Source of the DNA: Polyangiaceae bacterium
GTDB lineage: Bacteria; Myxococcota_A; Polyangia; Polyangiales; Polyangiaceae
Length of the DNA: 56,337 nucleotides
NCBI GenBank assembly: GCA_020849655.1
Contig: JADLFU010000028.1
Coordinates: 1 to 56,337 of the forward strand
Direction: 5' to 3'
The position numbers and the translations under genes are program-made. Shown piece after piece: positions 19,649-49,639 of the stretch. The notes beneath the pieces are model-generated. The model saw only the letters and a list, made by a program, of their open reading frames with translations, did no database searches and was not told the origin of the DNA. Position 1 is the stretch's first letter. The number at the start of each line of letters is the position of its first letter.

Positions 19649-22264
19649 ATGTCCAGGCGCGTGGAGACGGATCCGGCCGCGCGCGGCGTCGCCACCGCAC
19701 ACGCGACGGAGATCGTCGCCGTCGCGGGGACGCGCGCGACGGTCGCCCCGCTGGTCGACGCGCTCCGCAGGGTCGGGCCGCGGGTGTTCGGCTGCTCGAT
19801 CGAGGACGCCCGCGCGCGCGCCTCCGCGCTGCTCGCGCGGATCGCCGGGGGCGTCCTGGTCATGGGGGAGGACGTCCCGCCCGCCGACGGGGCGCCCCTC
19901 GTCGAGGCCGCGGTGCAGGCGGGCGCAGGCGTCGTCTGGTGCGCCGCGGCGCCTCCATCGCCCCTGCCCCCGGAGGTGGTGCGGGCGTCCGCGCGCGCTC
20001 TCTCGCCGGCCTTCTCCGGGCTGCTCACGGCGGCGCGCGGCGGCGGCGACGGCGCGCTCGCGCGGCTCTCGGTGAGGTGCCCCGCCGGCAGGCGCCAGCC
20101 GCGCCCGGCCTCGGTGCGCACGCCCTTCTTCGACGGCGCGCGCCAGCGCCTGGAGCTCACCGAGGAGGAGCAAGAGCGCCTAGCCGCGCTCGCAGCTGAC
20201 GCGTTCTGCCTCGCCGACGTGGTGGTGCCGGGGGCGGCGCGCGCGCTCGAGGTGACGGAGCTGGTCGCGGCGCCGGGGGCCGACAGGCTGGTCGCGCACG
20301 CGCGGGTGGGCGACGTGTTCCTCGACGTCGAGCTCGATCTGGAGCAGGCGGGCGAGGGGCCGCTGGAGCTCGAGGCGACGCTCGCGCGGAGCGCCGTCGT
20401 GTGCAGGTTCACCGCGGCGGGGGCGTCGCTCTCCCGCGTCGCCGCGCTGTCACGCGGAGAGCTCCCGCAGGCGACCGAGCCCGCCGCGCCGCGCGCCCTG
20501 CGCCACGCGCTCGCGGTGCGCGCGGATCCCGCGACGTCGCCGGCCTCCTCCGGGGCCGAGGCGCGCGCGCTCGCGGAGGCGCGGAGGGCGATCGCGGGGT
20601 ACCGCGCGCGCGTCGAGGCGCGCCCGGTGGAGCTCGTCCTCGTGCACGTGCCGCGGTTCCGCAACGTGCAGGACGAGCTGGAGCTGCCGTCGCTCGCGGC
20701 GGGGAGGCTCGCGGCGTTCGCGCGGGGGCATGGGTTCCGGGTCGCGGTCGTCGATCTCGAGGCGCTGTTCGGGCACGAGGAGCTGTCCTGCTTCGCCGAC
20801 GACGCGCGCGTCGACGCGTGGCTCGCGGGCGCCGACGACCCGCAGCTCTCCGCGCGCGTCGAGCGCCTCGGCGCCGCGATCGACGCGCCCGTCCGCGCGC
20901 TCGAGGCTCGGGGCGCGCGCGGCCTCGTCGGCCTGTCGATCGTCGACTATTTCGGCCATTTTCAGGCGAACCTGGCCTCGTGCCTCGCGCGCCGGGTGAA
21001 GTCGACGAGCGCGTGCGCCACCGTGCTCGGGGGAGAGCGCGATCAGGTCGACGGCGACCGCGCGCTCGGCGCCCCCGGCGCGTTCGACTACGTCGTCGAC
21101 GGCGACGGAGAGGCGGCGCTCCTCGGGCTGTTGCACCTCGTCGGGTACGGCGATCGCCCCGCGTCGACCATCCCGGGCGTGTGGTCGCGCGGCTCCGCGG
21201 GCCTCGTGAAGAACAAGCTCCTGCGCTCTCACCTCAACGCGATGCCGCGGCCTGACTTCGACGACGTCGACCTCGCGCGCTACCGCCGCGCGCCGCCGCC
21301 CGCGCTCGTCGCGCGGCTCCGCGCGGACGGGCTCGTCGACGACGAGGCGGTCGAGCCGTTCGCGTACCTGCCGTACGCGTTCGTGAAGGGCTGCACGGCG
21401 AAATGCGAGTTCTGCAGCGCGAAGGAGTGGCTCGACGTGCAGTCGCCCGAGAAGACCGCGGACGAGCTGCAGGCGCTCGCCGCGCGCCACGGCGTCCGCG
21501 ACTTCGTCCTCCTCGACAACCTCGTCAACGTGAGCCCCAGGCTGCTCGAGCGCCTGTGCCGCCGCCTCATCGACGACCGCGCCGGCCTGCAGTGGACGGA
21601 CTCGTGCCGCCCGACGGGCATCTCGCGCGAGCTCGCCGCGGCGATGCGCGAGTCCGGGTGCCTGCTGCTCAACTACGGGGCCGAGTCGGGGAGCGACAAG
21701 ATCCTCACGCTGATGAAGAAGGGCCTCTCGTCGCGCGACATCGTCGAGACGCTCCAGGCGACGCACGCGGCGGGGATCATCAACCGCGTGAACTTCATCG
21801 CCGGGTACTTCCACGAGACCCCCGACGACGTGGATCTGACGATCCGCCTGGTCGAGTCGCTGTCCGCCGAGATCGACGTCATCGGCTGCTTCCAGGGGTT
21901 CTATCTCTTCCCCGGGATGGGCGTCGACGAGGCGGAGGCAGGCGTCCGCGTGCGCCCCGGCCTCGACCGGCTGCGCTCGGGGCAGACGACGCTCGCGTAC
22001 GACGAGATCGGCGGGCTGCCGTGGGAGGAGAAGCGCGACGTCATCGACAGCTCGCGCGCGCGCATCCTCTCGGCGATGGAGGGCGCGGGCATCCGCACGC
22101 TCGACAAGATCAACGAGCACGGCCTGTTCTGGATGAGCCGGCGCTTCGACAAGGCGACGGTCAAGCGCTACCTGCTCGACGCGCCCCCCTCGCCCGCCGC
22201 GCCTCGCCCCAACCAGGCGCCGCTGCCGCCGGGCGGTCAGCGCGGGCGCGTCGAGCTCGGCTGA
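19649..22264 (+). CDS. Radical SAM protein with B12-binding-like Rossmann region and an extra N-terminal domain
   Basis: 871 residues. Residues 1-290 form an Ala-rich Rossmann-like domain reminiscent of a degenerate Gfo/Idh/MocA oxidoreductase (EIVAVAGTRATVAPLVDALR); weak recognition. Residues about 330-520 look like the B12-binding-type domain that precedes many radical SAM cores (GLVGLSIVDYFGHFQANLA, YVVDGDGEAALLGLL) but lack a DxHxxG motif, so cobalamin binding is doubtful. The core has a canonical CX3CX2C at C582, C586 and C589 (KGCTAKCEFC), followed by GAESGSDKIL and RVNFIAGYFHETPDD. Substrate unknown. Neighbours are a DUF483-like gene and a second radical SAM gene, which suggests one system. 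Confidence 0.87.
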   Translation: MSRRVETDPAARGVATAHATEIVAVAGTRATVAPLVDALRRVGPRVFGCSIEDARARASALLARIAGGVLVMGEDVPPADGAPLVEAAVQAGAGVVWCAAAPPSPLPPEVVRASARALSPAFSGLLTAARGGGDGALARLSVRCPAGRRQPRPASVRTPFFDGARQRLELTEEEQERLAALAADAFCLADVVVPGAARALEVTELVAAPGADRLVAHARVGDVFLDVELDLEQAGEGPLELEATLARSAVVCRFTAAGASLSRVAALSRGELPQATEPAAPRALRHALAVRADPATSPASSGAEARALAEARRAIAGYRARVEARPVELVLVHVPRFRNVQDELELPSLAAGRLAAFARGHGFRVAVVDLEALFGHEELSCFADDARVDAWLAGADDPQLSARVERLGAAIDAPVRALEARGARGLVGLSIVDYFGHFQANLASCLARRVKSTSACATVLGGERDQVDGDRALGAPGAFDYVVDGDGEAALLGLLHLVGYGDRPASTIPGVWSRGSAGLVKNKLLRSHLNAMPRPDFDDVDLARYRRAPPPALVARLRADGLVDDEAVEPFAYLPYAFVKGCTAKCEFCSAKEWLDVQSPEKTADELQALAARHGVRDFVLLDNLVNVSPRLLERLCRRLIDDRAGLQWTDSCRPTGISRELAAAMRESGCLLLNYGAESGSDKILTLMKKGLSSRDIVETLQATHAAGIINRVNFIAGYFHETPDDVDLTIRLVESLSAEIDVIGCFQGFYLFPGMGVDEAEAGVRVRPGLDRLRSGQTTLAYDEIGGLPWEEKRDVIDSSRARILSAMEGAGIRTLDKINEHGLFWMSRRFDKATVKRYLLDAPPSPAAPRPNQAPLPPGGQRGRVELG

Positions 22265-22273
22265 CGACGCGGA

Positions 22274-23494
22274 TCAACCGAACGGCAGGAGCGCGCCCAC
22301 CTCCTCGCCGTCGAGCTCGACGCCTCGACCGACGAGGCGCAGCAGGCCGCCGGGGGGGAGCCACGCGCCGAGCTTCGCGCGCGCGACGCCGGCCTCGACG
22401 GAGCCGTCGTCGCGGACGAGCGCGGCTCGCTCGTAGGCGAGCTCGTCCCCGCGCGCGCGGGCGCCCTCGAGCACGATCGATCTCGCCTCGTCGAGGTACA
22501 GGACCGCGCGCGAGAGCGACGCGAGGAGCGACGAGGCGACGCCGGCGTCGAGCGCGTCGAGCACGCCCTCCGCCCGCGCGACGGCGAGGCGGCACGAGAA
22601 CGTGCACGGCGTGAACGGCACGACCCTGCGGAGCACGACGTTCAGCGGCGGGGCGAAGGACGCGGAGAGCGCGCGCGTGCGTCGCTCGGTGATCCAGACG
22701 AGCGCCGCGTTGTCGCCGCGCGCGGCGAGCGCCTCGAACGCGGCGACGCAACACGGCGGGTACCCGAGCAGCGCCCCCAGCTCGCGCGCGTGCGCGGACG
22801 ATCCCCGCTCCCAGAGCGCCGCGGCGCGCTCGGCGTCCGCGCGCGATGCCGACAGGAACACGTGCGTCGAGTCGCGGCCCTCGCCGTACCTCCGCGCGCC
22901 CGTCGCGGGGTCGATGGCGACGGCCTCCGCGCGCGTCGCGGCGTGCGCGCCCGGGTGACGCGCGAGCAGCCGGGCGGCCTCGTCCGCGGGCTTGACCAGG
23001 TAGAGGACGGGCTTGTGCCCGGCGGTGAACGCGAGCTCCTCGAGATCGCCCGGGACCCCGAGGGTCGGATCGTCGACCGGCAGCGCGGCGGCGCTCGCCG
23101 CGCGCCGCTCCAGCCACGCGCCGAAGGGCGCGGCCGGGCCGCCGAGCTGCGCGCGCGACCGCCCGCGCGGCGCCGCGCGACGGTACCCGGAGGCGTCGTC
23201 GTGCTCGTAGAGCAGCGCGCCGAAGGTCGCCGCGCGATGCGCGAGCTCCTCGAGCCAGTCCGCGCGGATCGCGCCGCGCCGCACGACGACGCGCGGACAC
23301 CCGCGCTCCATCGCGGCGCTCGCGCGAAAGAGCGCCTCCTCCCCGCGCGCGGCGACGCCCACGGCGCGGGGCGCCTCCGCGAGCAGGGCGTCGAGATCTC
23401 CGTCCACGCCCTCGCGCGCGAAGTCGCCGACCAACTCGCCGTGCAGCGCGCCGAGCGCCACCGCTCGCGGCCGCGCGGGTTCGGGGGGAGACAC
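22274..23494 (-). CDS. DUF483-like protein next to radical SAM genes
   Basis: 406 residues, soluble. The most diagnostic segment is LGALLGYPPCCVAAFEALAA, typical of DUF483-type proteins, with a second cysteine pair in PFTPCTFSCRLAVARA. An earlier GHKPVLYLVKPADEAARLL segment precedes it. The cysteine pairs could bind metal or be a substrate site; function unknown. GTG start at 23494. Convergent with the first radical SAM gene (9-bp gap) and divergent from the second (71-bp gap, holding a short T7 run). Confidence 0.7.
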   Translation of the reverse strand: MSPPEPARPRAVALGALHGELVGDFAREGVDGDLDALLAEAPRAVGVAARGEEALFRASAAMERGCPRVVVRRGAIRADWLEELAHRAATFGALLYEHDDASGYRRAAPRGRSRAQLGGPAAPFGAWLERRAASAAALPVDDPTLGVPGDLEELAFTAGHKPVLYLVKPADEAARLLARHPGAHAATRAEAVAIDPATGARRYGEGRDSTHVFLSASRADAERAAALWERGSSAHARELGALLGYPPCCVAAFEALAARGDNAALVWITERRTRALSASFAPPLNVVLRRVVPFTPCTFSCRLAVARAEGVLDALDAGVASSLLASLSRAVLYLDEARSIVLEGARARGDELAYERAALVRDDGSVEAGVARAKLGAWLPPGGLLRLVGRGVELDGEEVGALLPFG

Positions 23495-23565
23495 CGCGCG
23501 AGCCTATTTTTTTCGAGCGACCGAGGCAACACCGCCCGCGACTCGGCTACGGTGGGCGCGACCGA

Positions 23566-26500
23566 GTGAAGCGATCCCTCCCGCTCCATCGACCCGACGA
23601 TCCGCTCCCCGCGCCGCTCGGGGAGGCGTGCCTGCCGTTCGCCGTGCTCAGCCTGCACAGCCACGACGGCCGATCGTTCCTCGACGACGTCGCGTCGCAC
23701 CACCTCGCCGGCGATCTGCGCGCGCTCGGGCTGCCGGGCGACCTCGTCGTCGCGCACCTGCCGCCCGGCGACCTCGAGGCGTCGTGGCGCGAGCTCGTGA
23801 CGGCGCTCGCGCCGTACCGCACCGTGCTCTACGAGCGCGTGTGGAGCGCGGACCTCCCCGCGCGGCTGCGCCGAGATCTGCCGGGCGTCACGATCGTGCA
23901 GGTGCGGGGCGAGCACCCGATGGAGGGCGCCGTCGCGGATCACGTGTTCGGCCCCGAGCGCGACCGCGTGCTCTCGTCGATGCTCGCGCTCGCCGGGCGC
24001 CCCGCCGCGCCCGCGCCGCGCGGGTACGCGCCCGTCGTCCGCCCCGTCGTCGCGACGCCGCGGCACCCGGGCGGGCCGCCGTCGTTCCCGATCGTCGGCA
24101 ACCTCGGGTGCCCCCACGGCGACGACGCCCGCGCGAACCCGCTGTACGAGGGCGTGGCGCTGCCCGAGGGGATGGGCCGAGGCTGCTCGTTCTGCACGAC
24201 GGGCAACCACTACGAGCACCGCTCACGCGAGCTCGCGGTCGAGCACGCGCTCGTGCAGCTGCGCTACCTGCGCGCGAACGCGCCCGAGATCGACACGCTC
24301 GTCCTGCGCGATCAGAGCCCGTTCTACTACCTGACCGAGCTCGTCGAGGCGGCGGCGGCCGAGGGGCTCGGGGCGTTCTCGCTGCTGCTCGAGTCGCGCG
24401 CCGACTGGTTCCTGCAGAGCGAGGCGCGGTTCGTGCGCGCGCTCGTGGCGGCGGGGCGCGCGGGCATCCGCCTGTGTCCCTTCCTCGTCGGCGTCGAGAG
24501 CTTCTCGCAGCCCGAGCTCGACAGGTTCAACAAGGCGATGGACGCCGAGACCAACGCGCGGTTCTTGGAGCGGCTCTGGGCGTGGCGCGACGAGCACGCG
24601 CCGGCGCTCGATCTGTCGCACGCGGCGTTCGGGTTCATCCTCTTCACCCCGTGGACGACGCTCGACGATCTCCGCGCGAACCTGGCCGGCGTGCGGCGCA
24701 CGCGCCTCTCCGAGCTGCGAGGCCACCTGCTCCTGTCGCGCGCGCGCCTCTACCCGGACACCGCGCTCTACTACCTCGCCGAGCGCGACGGGCTGCTCGC
24801 CGAGCGGTTCCGCTCCGAGGCCGAGGACAGCAGCGCTAGGTATGGGTACCTACCCGCGGCGCCGTGGAGGTTCCGGGATCCGCGCGTCGCCCGCGTGGCC
24901 GACCTCGGGGCGGCGCTCCTCGCGCGAGATCCCTCGGGCGACGAGCCCGCGATGCTCGAGGCGCTGATCGAGCTGTGCGCTGGCGCGGGCGATCCCGCGG
25001 CGGTGACGATCGACGACGCCGCAGCGAGGCTCGCGCCCGCGCGCGCGACGCCCGAGCCCGCGCGCGTGCACGACGCGCTGCTCACCGCGGTGCACGAGGC
25101 CAGGAGCGGGAGGTGGGCGAGCGCGCGAGCGCGGGTGCGGCGGGCCGTCGACCGCGCGCCCGACGACGCGTCGGTGCGCGTGATCGCGGGGATCGTCTCG
25201 TTCGTCGCGCGCGACCACGCGGGTGCGCTCCTGCACCTGCGGGAGGCCACGCGCCTGTCGCCTGCGCTCACGCCCCGCGTGGCGCCGATGATCGCGGAGC
25301 GCGCGGCGCGGCTCGGGTGGGACCGCGACCGGGAGGCTGCGCTCCGCGCGTGGGTCGCGGCCGCGCCCTCCGATCCGCGCGCCCACGTCGCCGCCGCGCG
25401 CCTGTACCTCTCGCGCCGGGCGTGGAGCGACGCGCTTCCGCTCCTCGAGCGGGCGTCCGAGCTCTCGGGCGCGCCGGGCGAGCTCGCGGTGGAGCGCGCG
25501 TCCGTGCTCGTCGAGCTCGGCCGCCACGCCGAGGTGGCCCCGCTGCTCCGCGACGCTCGCCCGAGGGCTCCTGGCGGCGCGCTCGCGTTCGAGCTGGAGG
25601 CCGCGCACACGCTCCGACGGGCGGGCGATTTCGAGGGCGCTCACGCGAGGCTCGTCGGCGCGCACGCGCTCGATCCGTCGTCGACCGCGGCCGTCGTCGG
25701 GCTCGCGGAGCTCGCGCTCTGGCGGGGCGATCACGAGGCCGCCCACGCCGAGCACGCGCCCGCGCTCGCGCGCCGCGACGAGCCCGCAGCCCTGAGGTGC
25801 CTCGGGGCGCTGGACCTCGCGCGCGGGGAGATCGCGCGCGGCGAGGCGCGCCTGCGCCACGCGCTCACCCTGGACGGAGGCGACGCGGAGACCCTCTGCT
25901 GGCTCGGAGAGCTCGCGATCGAGCGCGGGGATCACCGTGAGGCCGACGCGCAGCTGCAGGCGGCGGTGGCGGCGTCCGGCGGCGCGTCGTTCGCCCCGCT
26001 GCTGCTGCGGGCGCTCTCGACCGTCACCGAGGTGGCCGCGACGCAGCCTGGCGCGCGCTGCGCGTTCGCCAACTTCCAGGAGGTGGCCGCGACGGTCGAG
26101 CGGCTCGTCCCCGGCGCGCGGGCGACGCTGGTCGAGGGCGAGGCGTCGCCGTGCCGCGACGTCCTCCGCGCCGCGCGCGCGGCGCTCGGCGGCAACCTGT
26201 CGGCGCTCTCCACCCGCGTCGTCGACGGCGCCCTCGAGCTCGTCCCGCACGCGCCTGGTCCGCGCCTCGCGTCGCGCCGAGCGCTGCAGCTGATGCGGCT
26301 CCGCGGGCTCGACGCGACCCGCGACGAGCTACGGGCGGTGGCGGCGACCTACCCGGAGAGCTCCCTCCCCCTCTGTCACCTCGGCGAGGCGGAGCTGTGG
26401 GCGGGGGAGCTCGACGCCGCGCGGGCGACGCTCACCCGCACGCTGGAGATCTCCGCCGCCACGCGGTGGGCGTGGATCGGCCTCACCGCCGTGGAGGCGC

Positions 26501-27069
26501 TCGCGGGAGATCCGGCGCGCGCGCTCGAGGTGTCCGACCGCGGCGTCGCGGCGATGTGGGGCACCGTCGGGCCCGCCGTGCACGTGCACCGCGGCGAGGC
26601 GCTGTGGCTCTGTGGCCGGGGCGAGGAGGCCGAGGTCGAGCTCGAGCGCGCCCTCTCGCTGCACCCGCACCGCGTCTCGGCCCGCCTGCTGCTCGCGCTC
26701 ACGCGGCTCGCGCTCGGGCGCGACGACGAGGCCTGCCGCGACGCGCGGGCGCTCCGGGACGCGGCGCCCGGGCTGATGTCCGACGCCGCGGACGCCGCGC
26801 GCGTCGAGCTCTGGCGCGACGACGACGCGCTCCCTCCTAGGGGCGAGCTCATCAAGGTGCTGACGCACGCGCGCGCGATGATGCGCGGCAACCGCTCCGC
26901 GTCGTCGATCACGTACACCACGCCCGGCGGGACCCTGCGCGGGTGCGACGTCGGCGCGCGCGGCGACGCGCACGACGGCGACGCGGGCGCGCTCTCGCAG
27001 GCCGAGCGGCTCGCGCGGGCGGCGCTCGGACGCTCCGATCAGTCGGGCGCGCGACCGAGCGCGAGGTAG
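23566..27069 (+). CDS. Radical SAM protein with atypical CX24CX2C cysteines and a long TPR tail
   Basis: 1167 residues. Residues 1-170 resemble a B12-binding-type Rossmann domain without DxHxxG. The presumed cluster cysteines are C182 (NLGCPHG), C207 and C210 (GRGCSFCTTG), a CX24CX2C spacing instead of CX3CX2C: the position four before C207 is not Cys. Radical SAM core features continue with LESRADWFLQSEARF, LVGVESFSQPELDRFNK and FGFILFTPWTTLDDLRANLA. From about residue 500 to 1150 the protein is a string of TPR-like helical repeats. GTG start at 23566. The last 31 bp overlap the convergent MinD-like gene. Confidence 0.85.
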   Translation: MKRSLPLHRPDDPLPAPLGEACLPFAVLSLHSHDGRSFLDDVASHHLAGDLRALGLPGDLVVAHLPPGDLEASWRELVTALAPYRTVLYERVWSADLPARLRRDLPGVTIVQVRGEHPMEGAVADHVFGPERDRVLSSMLALAGRPAAPAPRGYAPVVRPVVATPRHPGGPPSFPIVGNLGCPHGDDARANPLYEGVALPEGMGRGCSFCTTGNHYEHRSRELAVEHALVQLRYLRANAPEIDTLVLRDQSPFYYLTELVEAAAAEGLGAFSLLLESRADWFLQSEARFVRALVAAGRAGIRLCPFLVGVESFSQPELDRFNKAMDAETNARFLERLWAWRDEHAPALDLSHAAFGFILFTPWTTLDDLRANLAGVRRTRLSELRGHLLLSRARLYPDTALYYLAERDGLLAERFRSEAEDSSARYGYLPAAPWRFRDPRVARVADLGAALLARDPSGDEPAMLEALIELCAGAGDPAAVTIDDAAARLAPARATPEPARVHDALLTAVHEARSGRWASARARVRRAVDRAPDDASVRVIAGIVSFVARDHAGALLHLREATRLSPALTPRVAPMIAERAARLGWDRDREAALRAWVAAAPSDPRAHVAAARLYLSRRAWSDALPLLERASELSGAPGELAVERASVLVELGRHAEVAPLLRDARPRAPGGALAFELEAAHTLRRAGDFEGAHARLVGAHALDPSSTAAVVGLAELALWRGDHEAAHAEHAPALARRDEPAALRCLGALDLARGEIARGEARLRHALTLDGGDAETLCWLGELAIERGDHREADAQLQAAVAASGGASFAPLLLRALSTVTEVAATQPGARCAFANFQEVAATVERLVPGARATLVEGEASPCRDVLRAARAALGGNLSALSTRVVDGALELVPHAPGPRLASRRALQLMRLRGLDATRDELRAVAATYPESSLPLCHLGEAELWAGELDAARATLTRTLEISAATRWAWIGLTAVEALAGDPARALEVSDRGVAAMWGTVGPAVHVHRGEALWLCGRGEEAEVELERALSLHPHRVSARLLLALTRLALGRDDEACRDARALRDAAPGLMSDAADAARVELWRDDDALPPRGELIKVLTHARAMMRGNRSASSITYTTPGGTLRGCDVGARGDAHDGDAGALSQAERLARAALGRSDQSGARPSAR

Positions 27070-42660: not shown

Positions 42661-43353
42661 TCAGCTGGGGAGCACGGGCAGGCGCGGGCCTGTCGCGCAC
42701 GCGACGTCGGCCCCGGCGTCGGGATCGTCGAAGAAGTCGAGCGGCGCGGGCGCCACGCCGAGCGCCTCGCACTCGCGCGAGAGCGCCTCGCCGCACCACG
42801 CGAAGAGCGGCCCGTACAGCGGATCGTCCTTCACCGCTGGGCGCGCCGCGAGCGCGAGCGCGAGGGGGGCGAGGTGCTCCCCGAGGAACCTCCGCCGCGC
42901 GTCGCGCACGATCTCGCCGCCCTCCGTGTCTCCGAGCCGCGCGAGCGCGGCCTGCTTCAGCAGCAGCACCGTGTAGAACTCGAGCTCGACCGCGACGTGG
43001 TCCTGCACCTCGTGCGCCCGCTCCGCGTCCAGCTCGAGGCCGAACGCCCGGTAGAACCCGGAGAGATCGGCGAGCTCGTTGCCCTTCGACATGCCCCGCA
43101 TGCGCCCGTACTCCGTCTCGTAGGGCGACGCGCCCGTGCGACCTCGGTCGAACAGATCGATGTACGCCGCGCGCACCACCGCCGGGCCGTCGGCGCGCGA
43201 GAGCGCCTCCGCGAACCCACGCGCAGACGGCGAGGCTGCGAGCGGCAGCCCGGCGAGCACCTCGAGCGTCGCGTCGTCCGGGTACGCGCCGAGCGCGGCG
43301 GCGAGCGCGAGCTCCCGCGCCAGCGTCTCCTCCGGCGAGACCTCGCCGCTCAT
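42661..43353 (-). CDS. TorD/DmsD-family molybdoenzyme chaperone
   Basis: 230 residues, all-helical. The features of the family are ASPYETEYGRMRGMSKGNELADLSGFYRAFGL-like stretches and the HEVQDHVAVELEFYTVLL segment (E-x-D-H-x-x-x-E-L-E). Such proteins bind the Tat signal or the apo-catalytic subunit and guard cofactor insertion before export. Its ATG overlaps the stop of the heme-b gamma subunit gene (ATGA), consistent with co-expression with the enzyme. It would serve the Tat-tagged alpha subunit encoded at 45392-48859. Confidence 0.88.
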   Translation of the reverse strand: MSGEVSPEETLARELALAAALGAYPDDATLEVLAGLPLAASPSARGFAEALSRADGPAVVRAAYIDLFDRGRTGASPYETEYGRMRGMSKGNELADLSGFYRAFGLELDAERAHEVQDHVAVELEFYTVLLLKQAALARLGDTEGGEIVRDARRRFLGEHLAPLALALAARPAVKDDPLYGPLFAWCGEALSRECEALGVAPAPLDFFDDPDAGADVACATGPRLPVLPS

Positions 43354-44222
43354 TGGACGATCACCGGGGTCCAGGCCATCGTCAGGGATTTCCGCGAGCC
43401 GACCTCGCCCTCGCCGCCTTGCCACACCGCGAAGGCGACGTTGCCCTTGCCGCCGACGGCGAGCTTCGACCCTCCGTCGATGGCGAGCGGGCGGACGATC
43501 ACGAGCGACCACTCTCCGTCCTTCCAGTCTCCGTGCGCGAGGCTCCCGTGGCCCTCGAGCACCGACGAGGTCGAGAACCCCTCCGCGACGATCTCGTCGA
43601 CGCCCGTCTTCGAGTACGACTGCGGGTTGCCCTCGGCGCGCCCGGGCGAGAAGGCCTCCGCCTGGGCCTCCGTCCCGCCCTTCGCGTCCTTGAATTCCAT
43701 GGGGTACATGTCGATCGACACGTTCGGGTAGAGCTGCGCGATCGTCGGCTTGCCCTTCTCGTGGTCGCGCTGGTACTGGGCTCGCCAGTGAAAGAGGTGC
43801 ACCGGCATCCCCTTCGCGCCCATCATCACCGGCGGCAGCGGGCCGTCCTGCAGCGGGAACTCCAGCGCGAGCGCGTCCGAGAACTCCCCCAGGCGCCCGG
43901 CCTCGCTGCGCTCCGGGTCCTTCCAGCGGAGCCTGAACGCTATCCGCTGCCCGTCGTGGACGGCCTGGACGGAGAGCGTGGAGGTCGTGGCCTTCTCGGG
44001 GCGGGGCGAGACCATCGGCTGCGCGAGCAGCGACACATCGCCCCCGCTCGCCTGCGCCCAGTAGGCGGCGCCGGGGTCTGCCTTCGACAGGTCGGCGGAC
44101 ACCCGCTTCACGAGCAGCTCCTTCAGCGGGGCGGGCTTCGCCGGCTTGTCGCTGCAACCGGCGGGCAGCGCCCCGAGCGCCAGGTTCGCCGCGATCATCA
44201 GTGCGATCTTCCAGTGGGACAT
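43350..44222 (-). CDS. Heme-b-binding gamma subunit of a type II DMSO reductase family enzyme, with lipobox
   Basis: 290 residues. Matches the ethylbenzene-dehydrogenase-type/NxrC-like gamma family: QRIAFRLRWKDPERSEA, DALALEFPLQDG, MMGAKGMPVHLFHWRAQYQ and WSLVIVRPLAIDGGS. In characterised relatives one heme b is ligated by a Met and a Lys; candidate Mets are in PPVMMGAKGM. The N-terminus MSHWKIALMIAANLALGALPAGC looks like a lipoprotein signal (PAGC), so this subunit may be membrane-tethered. It should pass electrons between the beta subunit and a periplasmic cytochrome c or quinol partner. It lies 25 bp after the beta subunit gene. Confidence 0.87.
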   Translation of the reverse strand: MSHWKIALMIAANLALGALPAGCSDKPAKPAPLKELLVKRVSADLSKADPGAAYWAQASGGDVSLLAQPMVSPRPEKATTSTLSVQAVHDGQRIAFRLRWKDPERSEAGRLGEFSDALALEFPLQDGPLPPVMMGAKGMPVHLFHWRAQYQRDHEKGKPTIAQLYPNVSIDMYPMEFKDAKGGTEAQAEAFSPGRAEGNPQSYSKTGVDEIVAEGFSTSSVLEGHGSLAHGDWKDGEWSLVIVRPLAIDGGSKLAVGGKGNVAFAVWQGGEGEVGSRKSLTMAWTPVIVQ

Positions 44223-44247
44223 GACAGGATCTCCAGTCGTCGCCGCG

Positions 44248-45384
44248 TCAGGGGGTGTTGTGGCGGGCGGCGCCGCGCCCGGCGTCGAAGGCGCTCCGCT
44301 CGTAGATGGCCTCTGTGACGGGCACCCGCACGATCTCCGCCCCGTCGGCGTCGTAGCCGATGGCCACGCCCTTCTCGACCGCGAACCTGTGCAGGATGCG
44401 GTCGCTGCTGCCCATGAGGCACAAGAGGCCCGCGGCCACGGGATCGTCGACGAGCTGCTTGTAGGCCTGGATGGCGTCGTCCACCCGCGGACCGAACATC
44501 TGGTGCAGGTACTCCGGGTCCGCGTGGATGGGCGGAATGTAATATATGTTCGGCTCGAGCCCGAGCTGGGGATAGTACGGCAGCGCGATCTTCTTCTTGT
44601 GGACCAGGTAGTCGATCGGGTTGTCCTCGCGCGCCTTCCACGGCGGGTTGATGAAGCCCATGACGCGGATCTTGCCGATGCAGTTGACGACGCACTGGGG
44701 CTGGATGCCCTCCTCGACGGCCGGGTAACAACCCACGCACTTCTCGCTGGTGCGGGTGTACGGGTTGTACATGGACTTTTTGTACGGGCACGCGCGGACG
44801 CACTCTCCGTAGCCCTTGCAGCGGCTCTGGTCGATGAGGACGATGCCGTCCTCCTCGCGCTTGTAGATGGCCTTGCGCGGGCACGCCGCGAGGCACGCGG
44901 GGTAGGTGCAGTGCGCGCAGGTGCGCGGGAGGTAGAACATCCACTCGTCGTGCGGCAGCTTCTGGACGTGACCGCCCGAGTCGACGGGCGCGCCCGCGCA
45001 GTCGTCCTCGCCGACGTTGGGGTACATCCAGTCCTCGTCCGTCGGCGCGTAGTGAAGCACGCGCTCCGTCGGCGGCGCCGCCTCGATGAGCGTCTTGCCG
45101 AGGTACTCGCCGTTCTTGCCCCAGTCCTGCCGCCCCAGCTTCTCCAGGATCCGGAGATCCCAGGCGAGCGGGTAGCCGCCCCAGGGCTTCGTCTCGACGT
45201 TGTTCCAGAACATGTACTCCTGGCCCTTGCCGCTGGTCCAGGTCGTCTTGCACGCCAGCGTGCAGGTCTGGCACGCGATGCATTTGTTGAGATCGAAGAT
45301 GATCGCCCACTGCCGCTTCGGGCGGCTCTCGTCGTACGGGTACTCGACCTCGCGCCCCAGCTGCCAGTTCTTCACTTTGGACAT
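44248..45384 (-). CDS. Iron-sulfur beta subunit (NarH/NxrB-like) of a type II DMSO reductase family enzyme
   Basis: 378 residues. Four cluster motifs as in NarH/NxrB: CIACQTCTLAC (C35, C38, C41, C45), CAHCTYPACLAACP, CKGYGECVRACP and CVGCYP with QPQCVVNC. A Tyr sits in CKGYGEC where NarH has Trp, the position that distinguishes the 3Fe-4S cluster. The C-terminal LPYYPQLGLEPNIYYIPP and MFGPRVDDAIQAY segments resemble NxrB/NarH from memory. It has no signal peptide and probably leaves the cell with the Tat-tagged alpha subunit. Seven bases separate it from the alpha gene. Confidence 0.93.
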   Translation of the reverse strand: MSKVKNWQLGREVEYPYDESRPKRQWAIIFDLNKCIACQTCTLACKTTWTSGKGQEYMFWNNVETKPWGGYPLAWDLRILEKLGRQDWGKNGEYLGKTLIEAAPPTERVLHYAPTDEDWMYPNVGEDDCAGAPVDSGGHVQKLPHDEWMFYLPRTCAHCTYPACLAACPRKAIYKREEDGIVLIDQSRCKGYGECVRACPYKKSMYNPYTRTSEKCVGCYPAVEEGIQPQCVVNCIGKIRVMGFINPPWKAREDNPIDYLVHKKKIALPYYPQLGLEPNIYYIPPIHADPEYLHQMFGPRVDDAIQAYKQLVDDPVAAGLLCLMGSSDRILHRFAVEKGVAIGYDADGAEIVRVPVTEAIYERSAFDAGRGAARHNTP

Positions 45385-45391
45385 TGGTTCC

Positions 45392-48300
45392 TCACTTCAC
45401 CGTGACGAATGCGCCCTTGAGGTAAGCCTTCATCGCCTCGCTCTCGTACGTCGGGCGGAACCCGAGCGCCGCGGGGCGCCACAGGGACTTCTTGTCGAGC
45501 CCGCCCGCCTCCACCTTCGTCAGCTTCACGAACGCCTCCCGGGGCGCGCCGACGGGGCAGTGCACGTCGGGCGTGAAGCCCTTGATCATCCCCTGGCCGA
45601 AGAGATCCTTGTGGACCAGCGTCTCGGTCATCAGGGTCGGCTTCAGCCAGGCGCGGGTCGCGCTCTGGTGGGAGCCGTAGCGGTACATCGCCTGGTAGTT
45701 GGTGTCGGCGCTCTTCGCGAGGCCGTCGGCGCGCGTCTCGTGGCCCTTCACGCTGCCGAACGTCGCGCCGTACATGTTGTGCCAGGTGCGGGCGACGCCG
45801 CGAGGGGTGCCGGGGTAGTACCGCACCCGCAGCATGAGCCTTGCCACCTTGTACTCGTCGGTGCCGGGCTTGAACCCGCGGTACGGGCGGTCCTCCGGGT
45901 CGGCGTCCACGTAGACGTAGTCGCCGTCCTCGAGCTTCAGCTCCTTCGCGTCCTTCGGGTTGATGTCCATGTACCCCTCGGTGACGGAGGGCAGCCGCTT
46001 GTCGTGGCGGTACACGTCGCCGAAGGGCCCGAACAGCACCCCGGCGAAGTCGGTGTCGACGGGCGTCGTGTGCGCGCCGTGTCGGTACTTGGGCGTGTGG
46101 TAGATGTGGGCGTACCCCTTGCTCATCAGCGGGTGCTTGCTCACCACCAATTCGTCGACGCTCTTCTGCACGTGGCGCACCTGGCGCGTCTCGCACGACA
46201 GATCCCCGGCCTCGAGGCCGTACGCGTCGGGCTGCTTCGGCCGCAGCGCCGGGTGACGCTTGGCGACGATGACGTTCGGCTCGTGGAACGTGGAGTCGAT
46301 GGGCTCGCGGTACACGACGAGGTTCTCCCCGCTGTCGATGAACTCGGCCTCGGGGCGGTAGAACTCGAGGCGCCCCGACTTCGTGTGCCACGGCTGCTCG
46401 CCCCGCGCCTGCTCGTACGACGAGACGCGCGGGTAGGTGCGGTTGTTGACGATCGCCGGGACGCCCTCCTTCGCCAGCGCGTGGAGCTTGTCGATGTCGT
46501 AGCCGGCGAGCGACGACGAGCCGTCGATGATGCGCTGCAGGTAGACGCCGACGGCGTCGTCGTCCACGAACTTCCACAGGGCGTCGAACCTGGGCTCCTC
46601 GTACAGCTTCCCGAGGGCCTTCGAGACGCCGGCGATGATCTCGATGTCGCTCTTCGTGTCGAACACGCGCTTCATCGTCGACTTCGGGTAGATCTGCACG
46701 AAGGGGTTGGTGCAGCTGCCGGTCATGTCGATGTGGCGGAACTCCGCCCACGAGTCGGCGGCGAACACGACGTCGGCGTACTCGCAGGAGCCCGTCCACC
46801 ACCAGTCGGAGTAGGCGATGAACTCGATGCCGGGAAGCGTGTTGTTGACGACGTCGTAGTGCCACTTGACGTTGCCGATGACGGAGTTGCTGTTGTTCAG
46901 CCACATCGCCTTCGTCGGCGCCGGCATGTGCCCGTGCCCGGTGAAGTTCTTGGTCCCCCGGCGGAGCGGTCGGTCTCCGTAGTTGAAGTAGTGGAGCGAC
47001 TCGTAGTGCAGGTACTTCTTGACGCTGACCTTGCCCTTCGGATCGGTCTGCGGGTGGAACGGATCCTCGGCCGCGAACGCGGGAATCCCCCCGAAGATCG
47101 GGGAGCGATAGTTGCCGGAGTAGCTGCCGACGTTCCCGCCGGGGAACCCGAGGTTGCGCGTCAACGCGGCCACGAGGAGGATGGCGCGGTCCTTCAGGTC
47201 GGCGTTGAAGTACTGGTTCGACCCCATGCCGGTGGCGAACAGGGTCTTCTCCGGGTTGGCGGCGATCTGCGCGGCCAGCGACTCCACGGCGGCCGCGGGC
47301 GCGCCGGTGATGCGGGCGACGTCGGCGGGCGTGAGGTTCTCGTCGAGGTACTGGGAGAGCAGCGAGAGGTGCGTGCGCACCTCGACCTCCCCGCCGGCCT
47401 TCAGCTTCACCTTCAGGGACGCGCCGAGGTCGGGCGTGCCCTTCATCTTCTTCCCGAAGTCGTCGCGCGTGACGACCGCGAGCTTCTTCGACTTGGCGTC
47501 GAGGACGACGTACGGGAGGAACTCGCCGGCGAGCGCCTCCGGGGCCACCTGCCCCCGCTGCTTGCGCGCGTCGGGCATCTTCTCGCCCTTCCCGAGGATC
47601 GTGAGGTTCTTTGGTTTGCTGGCGCGCGCGTCCGGCAGCGCGGCGGGGTCGACCTCCTCGGGGCGCAGCGGCTGGAGGGTGTCCATGCGCACCAGGAAGG
47701 GCAGATCGGTGTTCGTGGCGACCCACGCCGGATCGTAGAGCTTCTTCGCGATGATGACCTGCGCGAGGCCGAGCGCGAAGGCGGTGTCGGTGCCCGGCCG
47801 GAGGATGACGACCTCGTCGGCCTTGTTCGCCGTCGCGCTGTACTCGACGGTGATGGCGACCACCTTCGTGCCCTTCAGGCGCGCCTCCGTCATCCAGTGG
47901 CTGTCGGGCATCTTCGTCGTGATCCAGTTCATCCCCCAGACGAAGAGGAGCTTCGCGTGCTCGACGGCGAAGAGATCGAAGTCGTTCGTCTGCGCGCCGG
48001 TGACCATCGGGTGGCCGGGGGGCAGATCCGTGTGCCAGGAGTAGCTGTCCCAGCCGCGGGCGCCGACGGCATGGTCGGCGTCGACGCCGCGGACCTTGGC
48101 GTCCATGAGCGCGAGCGAGTTGGCGAACCGGTACAGGCCGTAGATGCGCGTCGCGCCGAGGAACGCCATGCCCCCGCGCAGCTTCACCGTCTGCGTGCCC
48201 GCGCCCTCCGTCGCCTCGATGACGTCGGGATCGTAGCCCTGGGCCTGGAGGCGCTTCTTGCCCTCCTCGCCCGAGTAGGCGCGGACGATGGCGTCGAGCG

Positions 48301-48859
48301 CCCTCGCGGAGTAGCTGTACGCCTCGTCCCAGCTGACGCGCGCCCACTTGTCCTTGCCGCGCTGGAAGTACTTCGGATCGGGCTTGCCGGTGGCCGCGTC
48401 GCGGGGGAACCCGTCGTCCGCCCACTGCTTGAAGCCGGCCCGGATCATGGGCGACTTGACGCGTCTGTCGCCGTAGACGCGCCGGACGAGCGCGAGGCCC
48501 TTCTGGCAGATGCGCGGGTCCCACCGGTGGGAGGCCTTGTTGCCGTACAGATCCTCGGCCTTGCCGTAGCCGTAGGTCGGCCCGATCCGGACGAGGATGT
48601 CGTTCTTGACGTGCCCGCGCAGCAGGCAGTTGTGGGTGTCGTTGGGCGCGCAGAGGAAGACGAACGACGAGTCGGCCTTGAAGATGTTGCGGTAGGCCTT
48701 CTCCCAGTCGCGGTTGGGGTACGACGCGAGCGGGTTGTCGACGCTCATGGGCTTCAAGAACCGGAGCGGCGCGGCGTCGGCGGTGGCCGCGCCCACGGTC
48801 GCGGTCGCGAGCACCCCCTGGAGGAACGAGCGGCGAGTGTGGTTCGGGTCGATGGTCAT
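45392..48859 (-). CDS. Tat-exported molybdopterin alpha subunit, NarG/NxrA-like
   Basis: 1155 residues. Twin-arginine signal [20 protein letters not shown] (R9, R10). Cluster FS0 region: C70-X3-D74-X3-C78 and C118, in [19 protein letters not shown], in place of NarG's His-X3-Cys-X3-Cys. The presumed Mo-ligating Asp is D278 in [11 protein letters not shown], matching the NarG ADLPPASP block, followed by [20 protein letters not shown] and [19 protein letters not shown]. The type II fold thus includes nitrate reductase, nitrite oxidoreductase, perchlorate, selenate and ethylbenzene enzymes; substrate not decidable here. No NarI-like cytochrome b or transporter is adjacent, so electrons probably flow via the gamma subunit. 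The predicted active site faces the periplasm. Confidence 0.92.
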
Positions 48860-48892
48860 CTCGGTGGTTCCGTGTGAGAAGAGTGGACGACG

Positions 48893-49639
48893 TCAGGACT
48901 CGTCGACGAAGACGGCGCGGGGCGACACCTCCCGCAGCGACAGGCCGGGGGCGCGGCGCGCGAGGAGGCGCTCGAGCGTCGCGCCGAGGCGCAGCCCCCC
49001 CGTGCCTCCGGCGCCCTTCACTGCGTAGTGCAGCACACCCTCCGAGACGCCGAGGAACTCGACGCGCGCGCGCGAGTCGAACATCGACAGCGTCCTCGCG
49101 GCGGCCTCGAGGTGGGGGCGCAGCTCGTCGGGCACCGGGCCGTGGCGCCCCGACCACTCCGGGTCCAGGTACACGGCGTCGACGCACCGCGCGCCTCCGT
49201 GGCCCGCGCTGTCATGGCGGGCGTGCATCGCGCCGCCCGTCATGCCTAGCACGAGGCCCGCCATCGCCTCTCTGTAGAAGTCGCAGCCGGCGGGGCCGAG
49301 CGCGGCGACGGGGCACGCCTCTCGCTCCAGGTACACCGCGGCGCTGTCGTCGTCGGGCGCGCGCGGGCGGCGCTCGGCGCAGGCGACGCCCAGCTCGGGC
49401 AGCGCCCCCACGAGCTCCGAGAACGTCGCGTGCGACGCCTGCACCGCCGCGTAACCCCGGCCGAGCCGGAGGCTGTTGTCGAACACCGCGCGCTGCGCCG
49501 CGGCCGGCGCGGCGAGGAGCGCCGCGCGCAGCAACTCCTCGTCTCCGGTCTCCGACGTCGAGTCGCTCAGCACCGCGCGGAGGGCGGCGCGGCGCGCGTG
49601 ACGCCAGCGCGCGGACAGCTCTCGATGGGCCTCGGTCAT
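48893..49639 (-). CDS. Uncharacterised protein with a cysteine-less NifU-like C-terminus, first gene of the molybdoenzyme operon
   Basis: 248 residues, ATG at 49639. The central EACPVAALGPAGCDFYREAMAG and GHGGARCVDAVYLDP region carries four cysteines in a 4-vinyl-reductase-like context (weak recognition). The last 70 residues align by eye with the NifU C-terminal scaffold domain: LRPHLEAAARTL..., then GVLHYAVKGAGGTGGLRLGATLERLLARRAPGL. The GACxxC that should hold the cluster reads GAGGTGG, so it cannot bind Fe-S the usual way. Position 34 bp before the alpha gene suggests an assembly or sensory role. Identity of the N-terminal half is unknown. Confidence 0.65.
   Translation of the reverse strand: MTEAHRELSARWRHARRAALRAVLSDSTSETGDEELLRAALLAAPAAAQRAVFDNSLRLGRGYAAVQASHATFSELVGALPELGVACAERRPRAPDDDSAAVYLEREACPVAALGPAGCDFYREAMAGLVLGMTGGAMHARHDSAGHGGARCVDAVYLDPEWSGRHGPVPDELRPHLEAAARTLSMFDSRARVEFLGVSEGVLHYAVKGAGGTGGLRLGATLERLLARRAPGLSLREVSPRAVFVDES

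Follow-up and report, generated by a model that had tools for sequence, protein, structure and literature searches.

A radical SAM and DUF483-like gene cassette of a Polyangiaceae bacterium and its association with the His-Xaa-Ser system

DUF483 is, as its Pfam name indicates, a domain of no known function, and one of the closest described systems to contain it is a module of Thermus phages (Cumys, phiMa, and phiLo), for which a radical S-adenosylmethionine (SAM) protein, a DUF483 protein, and a protein of unknown function were reported in 2024 and DNA modification was suggested (PMC11437467). This proposal of DNA or nucleoside modification rests on cyanobacterial homologues located near deazapurine genes (PMC11437467). 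A second related system is the His-Xaa-Ser (HXS) system, represented by curated models for the repeat peptide HxsA4 (NF038313), HxsB (TIGR03978), and HxsD (TIGR03976); no product of it was found in the literature searched. Here we analyze a stretch of 56,337 nucleotides from a Polyangiaceae bacterium (GCA_020849655.1, contig JADLFU010000028.1, positions 1 to 56337; “the window” denotes this whole stretch), in which three neighboring open reading frames at 19649 to 27069 encode a B12-type radical SAM protein (p1), a DUF483-like protein (p2), and a variant radical SAM enzyme with a tetratricopeptide repeat (TPR) array (p3). To our knowledge, none of the three is among the core HXS genes. The link of p2 and p3 to the HXS system is well supported, and we propose a mechanism for the locus.

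Because HGS-repeat genes, along with genes resembling HxsD or HxsB, were present in several p3 and p2 loci, association with the HXS system was tested genome-wide, in 237 Myxococcota genomes with completeness of ≥85%. Profiles for HxsD (TIGR03976) and HxsA4 were used because whole-genome counts of the HGS-repeat pattern were too noisy alone. All 44 genomes containing p2 carry hxsD, compared with 40 of the other 193 (p = 9e-25), and all 44 also carry HxsA4. For p3, hxsD is present in 36 of 39 genomes and in 48 of the remaining 198 (p = 6e-16). Because shared descent is not taken into account in these p values, they should be read with the counts by genus and family: for p2, hxsD is found in 30/30 genera versus 27/135 (p = 2e-17; 15 families) and, for p3, in 26/29 versus 31/136. 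Within the family of the window (98 genomes), hxsD accompanies every strong p3 match (20/20) but is found in only 20 of the other 78 genomes. Genome size is not the cause of the association, as hxsD is present in 15/15 genomes of 8 Mb or more with p3 versus 11/33 without. A control family of radical SAM enzymes of ribosomally synthesized and posttranslationally modified peptides (RiPPs; TIGR03975) showed no significant association (8/15 versus 76/222; p = 0.11).

The association is also physical. In two genomes, p2-like genes lie 1.1 to 4.4 kb from HxsA4 and hxsD; in four genomes, p2 or p3 is located inside HXS islands containing multiple radical SAM genes together with HxsB and HxsD (loci L202 to L207), and HGS-repeat genes adjoin p3 in three loci (L091, L099, and L128). 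Several members of the family also have a large open reading frame, ClpA/ClpB-like by eye, within about 10 kb of hxsD (L187, L190, L193, L194, and L195).

The genome from which the window derives encodes HxsA4 (86 residues, ending HCSHGSHGS...HGSW; 71.6 bits, cutoff 55), HxsD (67.5 bits, cutoff 50), and HxsB (538 bits, cutoff 370), all above their curated cutoffs and located on contigs C56, C60, and C178, respectively. The window itself contains no HXS gene, and no histidine-repeat open reading frame that could serve as a precursor was found within it. The preliminary description of this DNA, made from the sequence alone, was thus right in finding no precursor peptide gene in the window, but a candidate precursor exists outside it, since the genome encodes the HxsA4 repeat peptide on another contig. 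Its statement that no known pathway of this composition could be named needs revision, since p2 and p3 are nearly confined to HXS genomes; p1, p2, and p3 themselves match no curated HXS model. Given that the HXS genes lie on other contigs and that about half of HXS genomes lack p2 and p3, these are not core HXS genes; the enzymes probably work within or beside the known HXS system and are themselves outside its curated models. The same genome has many multidomain radical SAM proteins for which HxsC4 is the best NCBIfam model, all scoring below its cutoff and scattered over the assembly (L136 to L152; contigs C18, C62, C67, C106, C129, and C222).

All three open reading frames are present where they had been reported: p1 (871 residues) at 19649 to 22264 on the forward strand, with orthologues in loci L055 to L060; p2 (406 residues) at 22274 to 23494 on the reverse strand; and p3 (1,167 residues) at 23566 to 27069 on the forward strand. 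Genes p1 and p2 are convergent, and p2 and p3 are divergent, separated by 71 bp (23495 to 23565; as much as ∼104 bp with a p2 start at 23461) that may form a shared promoter region. A sister species and six Polyangium genomes share the order p1(+) p2(−) p3(+), and one further genus has all three genes in a rearranged order. Recurrence of the three genes together in other genera indicates that the cassette is not due to chance. Outside these lineages, p1 is lost and p2-like proteins are retained, and the p2-p3 pair is older than the three-gene cassette. Of the 98 genomes of the family, 23 have relatives of the p3 core. Among the 76 loci found with a p3 core, 13 encode the p2 domain in the same chain and 25 have p2 within 3 kb; 36 lack p2, but 21 of these have a flank of <3 kb. 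The natural fusions are strong evidence that p2 and p3 work together. Together with the recurrent gene order, they uphold the view of the locus as a functional unit, and the co-occurrence that the preliminary description proposed as a check was found.

The variant enzyme p3 scores 17.1 bits against the radical SAM family PF04055, under the curated cutoff of 29.5, and the canonical CX3CX2C motif is absent. In its place is CX24CX2C, formed by C182, C207, and C210 (24109 to 24195, forward strand), in which all three cysteines are invariant in alignments of 18 and of 68 relatives. The position four residues before C207 is practically never cysteine in relatives, nor is it in p3 of the window, and the spacing between the first two cysteines, 24 residues here, is about 19 to 33 in most relatives. 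The fold was deduced from the predicted model of a natural p3-p2 fusion (locus L066) that is 48% identical over the p3 core. Residues 1 to 460 of this model mostly have a predicted local distance difference test score (pLDDT) of >90, and its best structural matches are radical SAM enzymes that depend on B12 or share the B12 fold, namely OxsB (Z 17.9; root mean square deviation 4.3; 396 residues aligned), AprD4 (17.6), MgmA (15.9), and TsrM (14.7). The first motif cysteine of the fusion, C151, lies a few residues past the strand formed by residues 142 to 146. On this model, p3 is predicted to have the fold of a radical SAM protein, with a longer loop between its first two cluster cysteines, and the conservation of C182, C207, and C210 suggests that they are [4Fe-4S] cluster ligands. 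The core would span approximately residues 176 to 455 (24091 to 24930, forward strand), preceded by a B12-like alpha/beta domain at approximately residues 22 to 150 (23629 to 24015, forward strand) without a DxHxxG motif. The earlier assignment of p3 to the radical SAM class was therefore correct by fold but overlooked the changed cluster motif. As p3 falls below the Pfam cutoff and its subfamily is missed by standard profiles, surveys of radical SAM enzymes undercount this subfamily. Distant relatives of the p3 core in two Deltaproteobacteria and one Elusimicrobia metagenome-assembled genomes lie near genes that by eye resemble those of nitrogenase-type reductases, NifH-like and NifD/K-like (L105, 2222 to 6335; L113, 1 to 2563 and 14538 to 17769; L116, 11260 to 14704).

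The TPR array of p3, at residues ∼509 to 1068 (25090 to 26769, forward strand), is real (TPR_19, E = 6e-16, 59 bits, cutoff 25), but it was seen in the genus of the window only. At the same site, Polyangium orthologues have a second, SPASM/Twitch-like radical SAM domain with the motif CNQDCGMC; in many p3 relatives, the variant radical SAM domain is followed by an additional canonical one, and others end early or continue into a DUF483 domain. The array is consequently a lineage trait rather than part of the system core, and the suggestion that a protein substrate is captured by the TPR is not supported by this comparison. A separate SPASM/Twitch-like protein of 445 residues is encoded elsewhere in the genome of the window (contig C62).

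The partner protein p2 has the previously recognized LGYPPCCVAAF signature, starting at residue 243. Its score against DUF483 (PF04467) is 21.4 bits, below the gathering score of 25, but 28 of 37 p2 relatives match DUF483 at an E value of up to 0.01 (best, 1.7e-8). With the conserved GYPxCC and (P)[CH]xxxC motifs by which DUF483-like proteins were recognized, p2 belongs among them. It consists of a half-Rossmann-like domain (residues 14 to 111) and a four-cysteine DUF483-like domain (residues ∼144 to 310), both within 22274 to 23494 on the reverse strand. The cysteines lie in LGYPPCC (residues 243 to 249; 22748 to 22768) and PCTFSC (residues 296 to 301; 22592 to 22609), and C248, C249, C297, and C301, as well as G244 and P246, are kept in 37/37 aligned relatives. 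Phage DUF483 members have PHSLxC, with histidine at the position of C297, a substitution that would fit metal binding better than disulfide formation. The predicted model of p2 is confident (pLDDT 89; predicted template modeling score 0.86), and Foldseek returned no PDB match to it at an E value below 0.001. Three VIA-align comparisons are leads only: residues 144 to 258 with the uncharacterized structure 2guk (Z 10.4; 100 residues; 3.4 Å), residues 14 to 111 with oxidoreductase half-Rossmann folds (Z up to 8.7), and, weakly, the model with the cysteine methyltransferase NleE (Z 7.1). A second p2-like DUF483 protein of the same genome (264 residues; contig C159; L135, 6643 to 7437) has no p3 relative nearby and reaches 26.8 bits against DUF483 with its neighbors. 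A gene adjoining a p3 relative (L044, 11280 to 13634) has a start resembling, by eye, an FAD-dependent halogenase or oxidoreductase and a DUF483-like domain at its end.

The first gene of the cassette, p1, is a radical SAM protein by its match to PF04055 (E = 3e-17; 63.6 bits, cutoff 29.5), with a core at residues 578 to 734 and the canonical CX3CX2C motif CTAKCEFC at residues 582 to 589 (21392 to 21415, forward strand). Its match to the B12-binding domain is weak (17.2 bits, cutoff 32.1), at a degenerate B12-like domain of residues ∼330 to 500. The label “degenerate B12-type” given to p1 and p3 is fair, DxHxxG being absent from both, and some cobalamin-binding radical SAM enzymes bind cobalamin without this motif. 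The N-terminal ∼330 residues of p1 had been called oxidoreductase-like, but profile searches returned no such relative, and comparison with solved structures gave no relative.

Histidine repeats also accompany DUF483 in the Thermus phages. The “unknown” protein of the Cumys module, Cumys_13 (L153, 11645 to 12676), has 54 of 54 histidines in His-Xaa-Asp (HxD); phiMa_29 (L199, 2712 to 3740) has 53 HxD and phiLo_137 (L185, 9233 to 10657), near the phiLo DUF483 and radical SAM genes, has 72. HxD tails are also found on the radical SAM enzymes of these modules, and the Cumys module sits among tail genes. The phage DUF483 matches the p2 profile at 45 bits. Searches with the Cumys DUF483 and radical SAM proteins matched only phiMa, phiLo, and one metagenomic contig, and viral contigs gave one weak match to p3. 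DUF483 therefore accompanies histidine repeats in two unrelated settings.

We propose, with a probability only slightly better than even (roughly 55%), that the locus is a dispersed part of an expanded HxsA4-type HXS peptide-maturation pathway; membership of an HXS-linked route is somewhat more probable than the exact roles that follow. In this proposal, p3 would belong to the B12-fold radical SAM enzymes and bind its [4Fe-4S] cluster through C182, C207, and C210 rather than through CX3CX2C; the first cysteine would keep its place behind strand beta-1, with an insertion of some 20 residues ahead of the second. As the partner of p3, p2 would bind a metal or cluster through its four cysteines (CC...CxxxC) and present, or help to modify, the repeat substrate, which is likely to be HxsA4, the HGS-repeat peptide whose gene lies elsewhere in the genome. 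Most likely, p3 and p2 would associate in a complex modifying HxsA4 repeats or another component of that route, p1 would catalyze an additional step, and the TPR array would be a lineage-specific scaffold. A broader and more tentative possibility, which we consider less probable than the proposal itself, is that DUF483-like proteins and radical SAM enzymes, including the CX∼24CX2C subfamily, form a general machinery modifying fixed-spacing histidines in HxS and HxD repeats of bacteria and of phage structural proteins, making a new modified histidine array.

Several observations weigh against this interpretation. The genomes compared are not independent, and counts by genus and family soften but do not remove this problem. 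Three p3-positive genomes, with weak and distant matches, lack hxsD, and p2 and p3 are missing from about half of HXS genomes. In the genome studied here, the HXS genes and the window are on different contigs, and many p3 loci have no HXS gene within 10 kb. Lifestyles rich in radical SAM enzymes could carry both p2/p3 and HXS, and the cassette might then modify a separate cellular protein or peptide, its co-occurrence with HXS reflecting radical-SAM-rich genomes. We regard this as unlikely, though the most serious of the alternatives, given the co-occurrence in 44/44 and 36/39 genomes, the nonsignificant control family, the size control, and the physical linkage to HxsA4 and HxsD in several genomes.

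The fold assigned to p3 comes from a modeled relative. Having lost CX3CX2C, p3 could be a degenerate structural partner, the chemistry being performed by p1 or other canonical radical SAM proteins; its score is under the PF04055 cutoff, and the chains of many relatives include an additional, canonical radical SAM domain. Invariance of the three-cysteine motif in 68 relatives from several phyla is not expected of a dead enzyme, and relatives such as those in L068 and L064 lack such an additional domain; an inactive p3 is accordingly improbable. For the phages, the shared element is DUF483 alone, as their radical SAM enzymes are SPASM-type proteins that show no detectable relationship to p3. Modification of DNA or nucleosides by DUF483 and radical SAM modules, as the authors of the phage study suggested (PMC11437467), is very improbable in our view: the third phage gene encodes an HxD-repeat protein, beside tail genes in Cumys, and no DNA modification gene was recognized by eye around p2 and p3 in the islands read.

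Elsewhere in the window, outside the p1-p3 locus, an operon at 42661 to 49639 resembles, by eye, a molybdopterin oxidoreductase with a ferredoxin subunit and a chaperone.

Among the known systems closest to the cassette is HXS, with which p2 and p3 share genomes and, in several cases, islands, but the cassette differs in matching no HXS model and in lying apart from HXS genes in the window; its relatives in L091, L099, L128, and L202 to L207 are located in HXS clusters. Like the locus described here, the Thermus phage module combines a DUF483 protein related to p2 with an adjacent radical SAM gene and a nearby histidine-repeat protein, but its radical SAM enzyme is of the SPASM type with a canonical motif and its repeat is HxD rather than HxS. 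OxsB, AprD4, MgmA, and TsrM resemble the p3 relative in fold, from which p3 differs in lacking CX3CX2C, with sequence identity of about 15%. A precedent, among other enzymes with altered cluster motifs, is QueE of Burkholderia multivorans (CX14CX2C), which, like p3, has an insertion between the first two cluster cysteines; p3 has 24 residues there and belongs to a different subfamily. Through the tie of p2 and p3 to HxsA4 and the HxD-repeat protein beside the phage DUF483 module, the function of DUF483 and the product of HXS gain a shared and testable candidate substrate class, histidine repeats.

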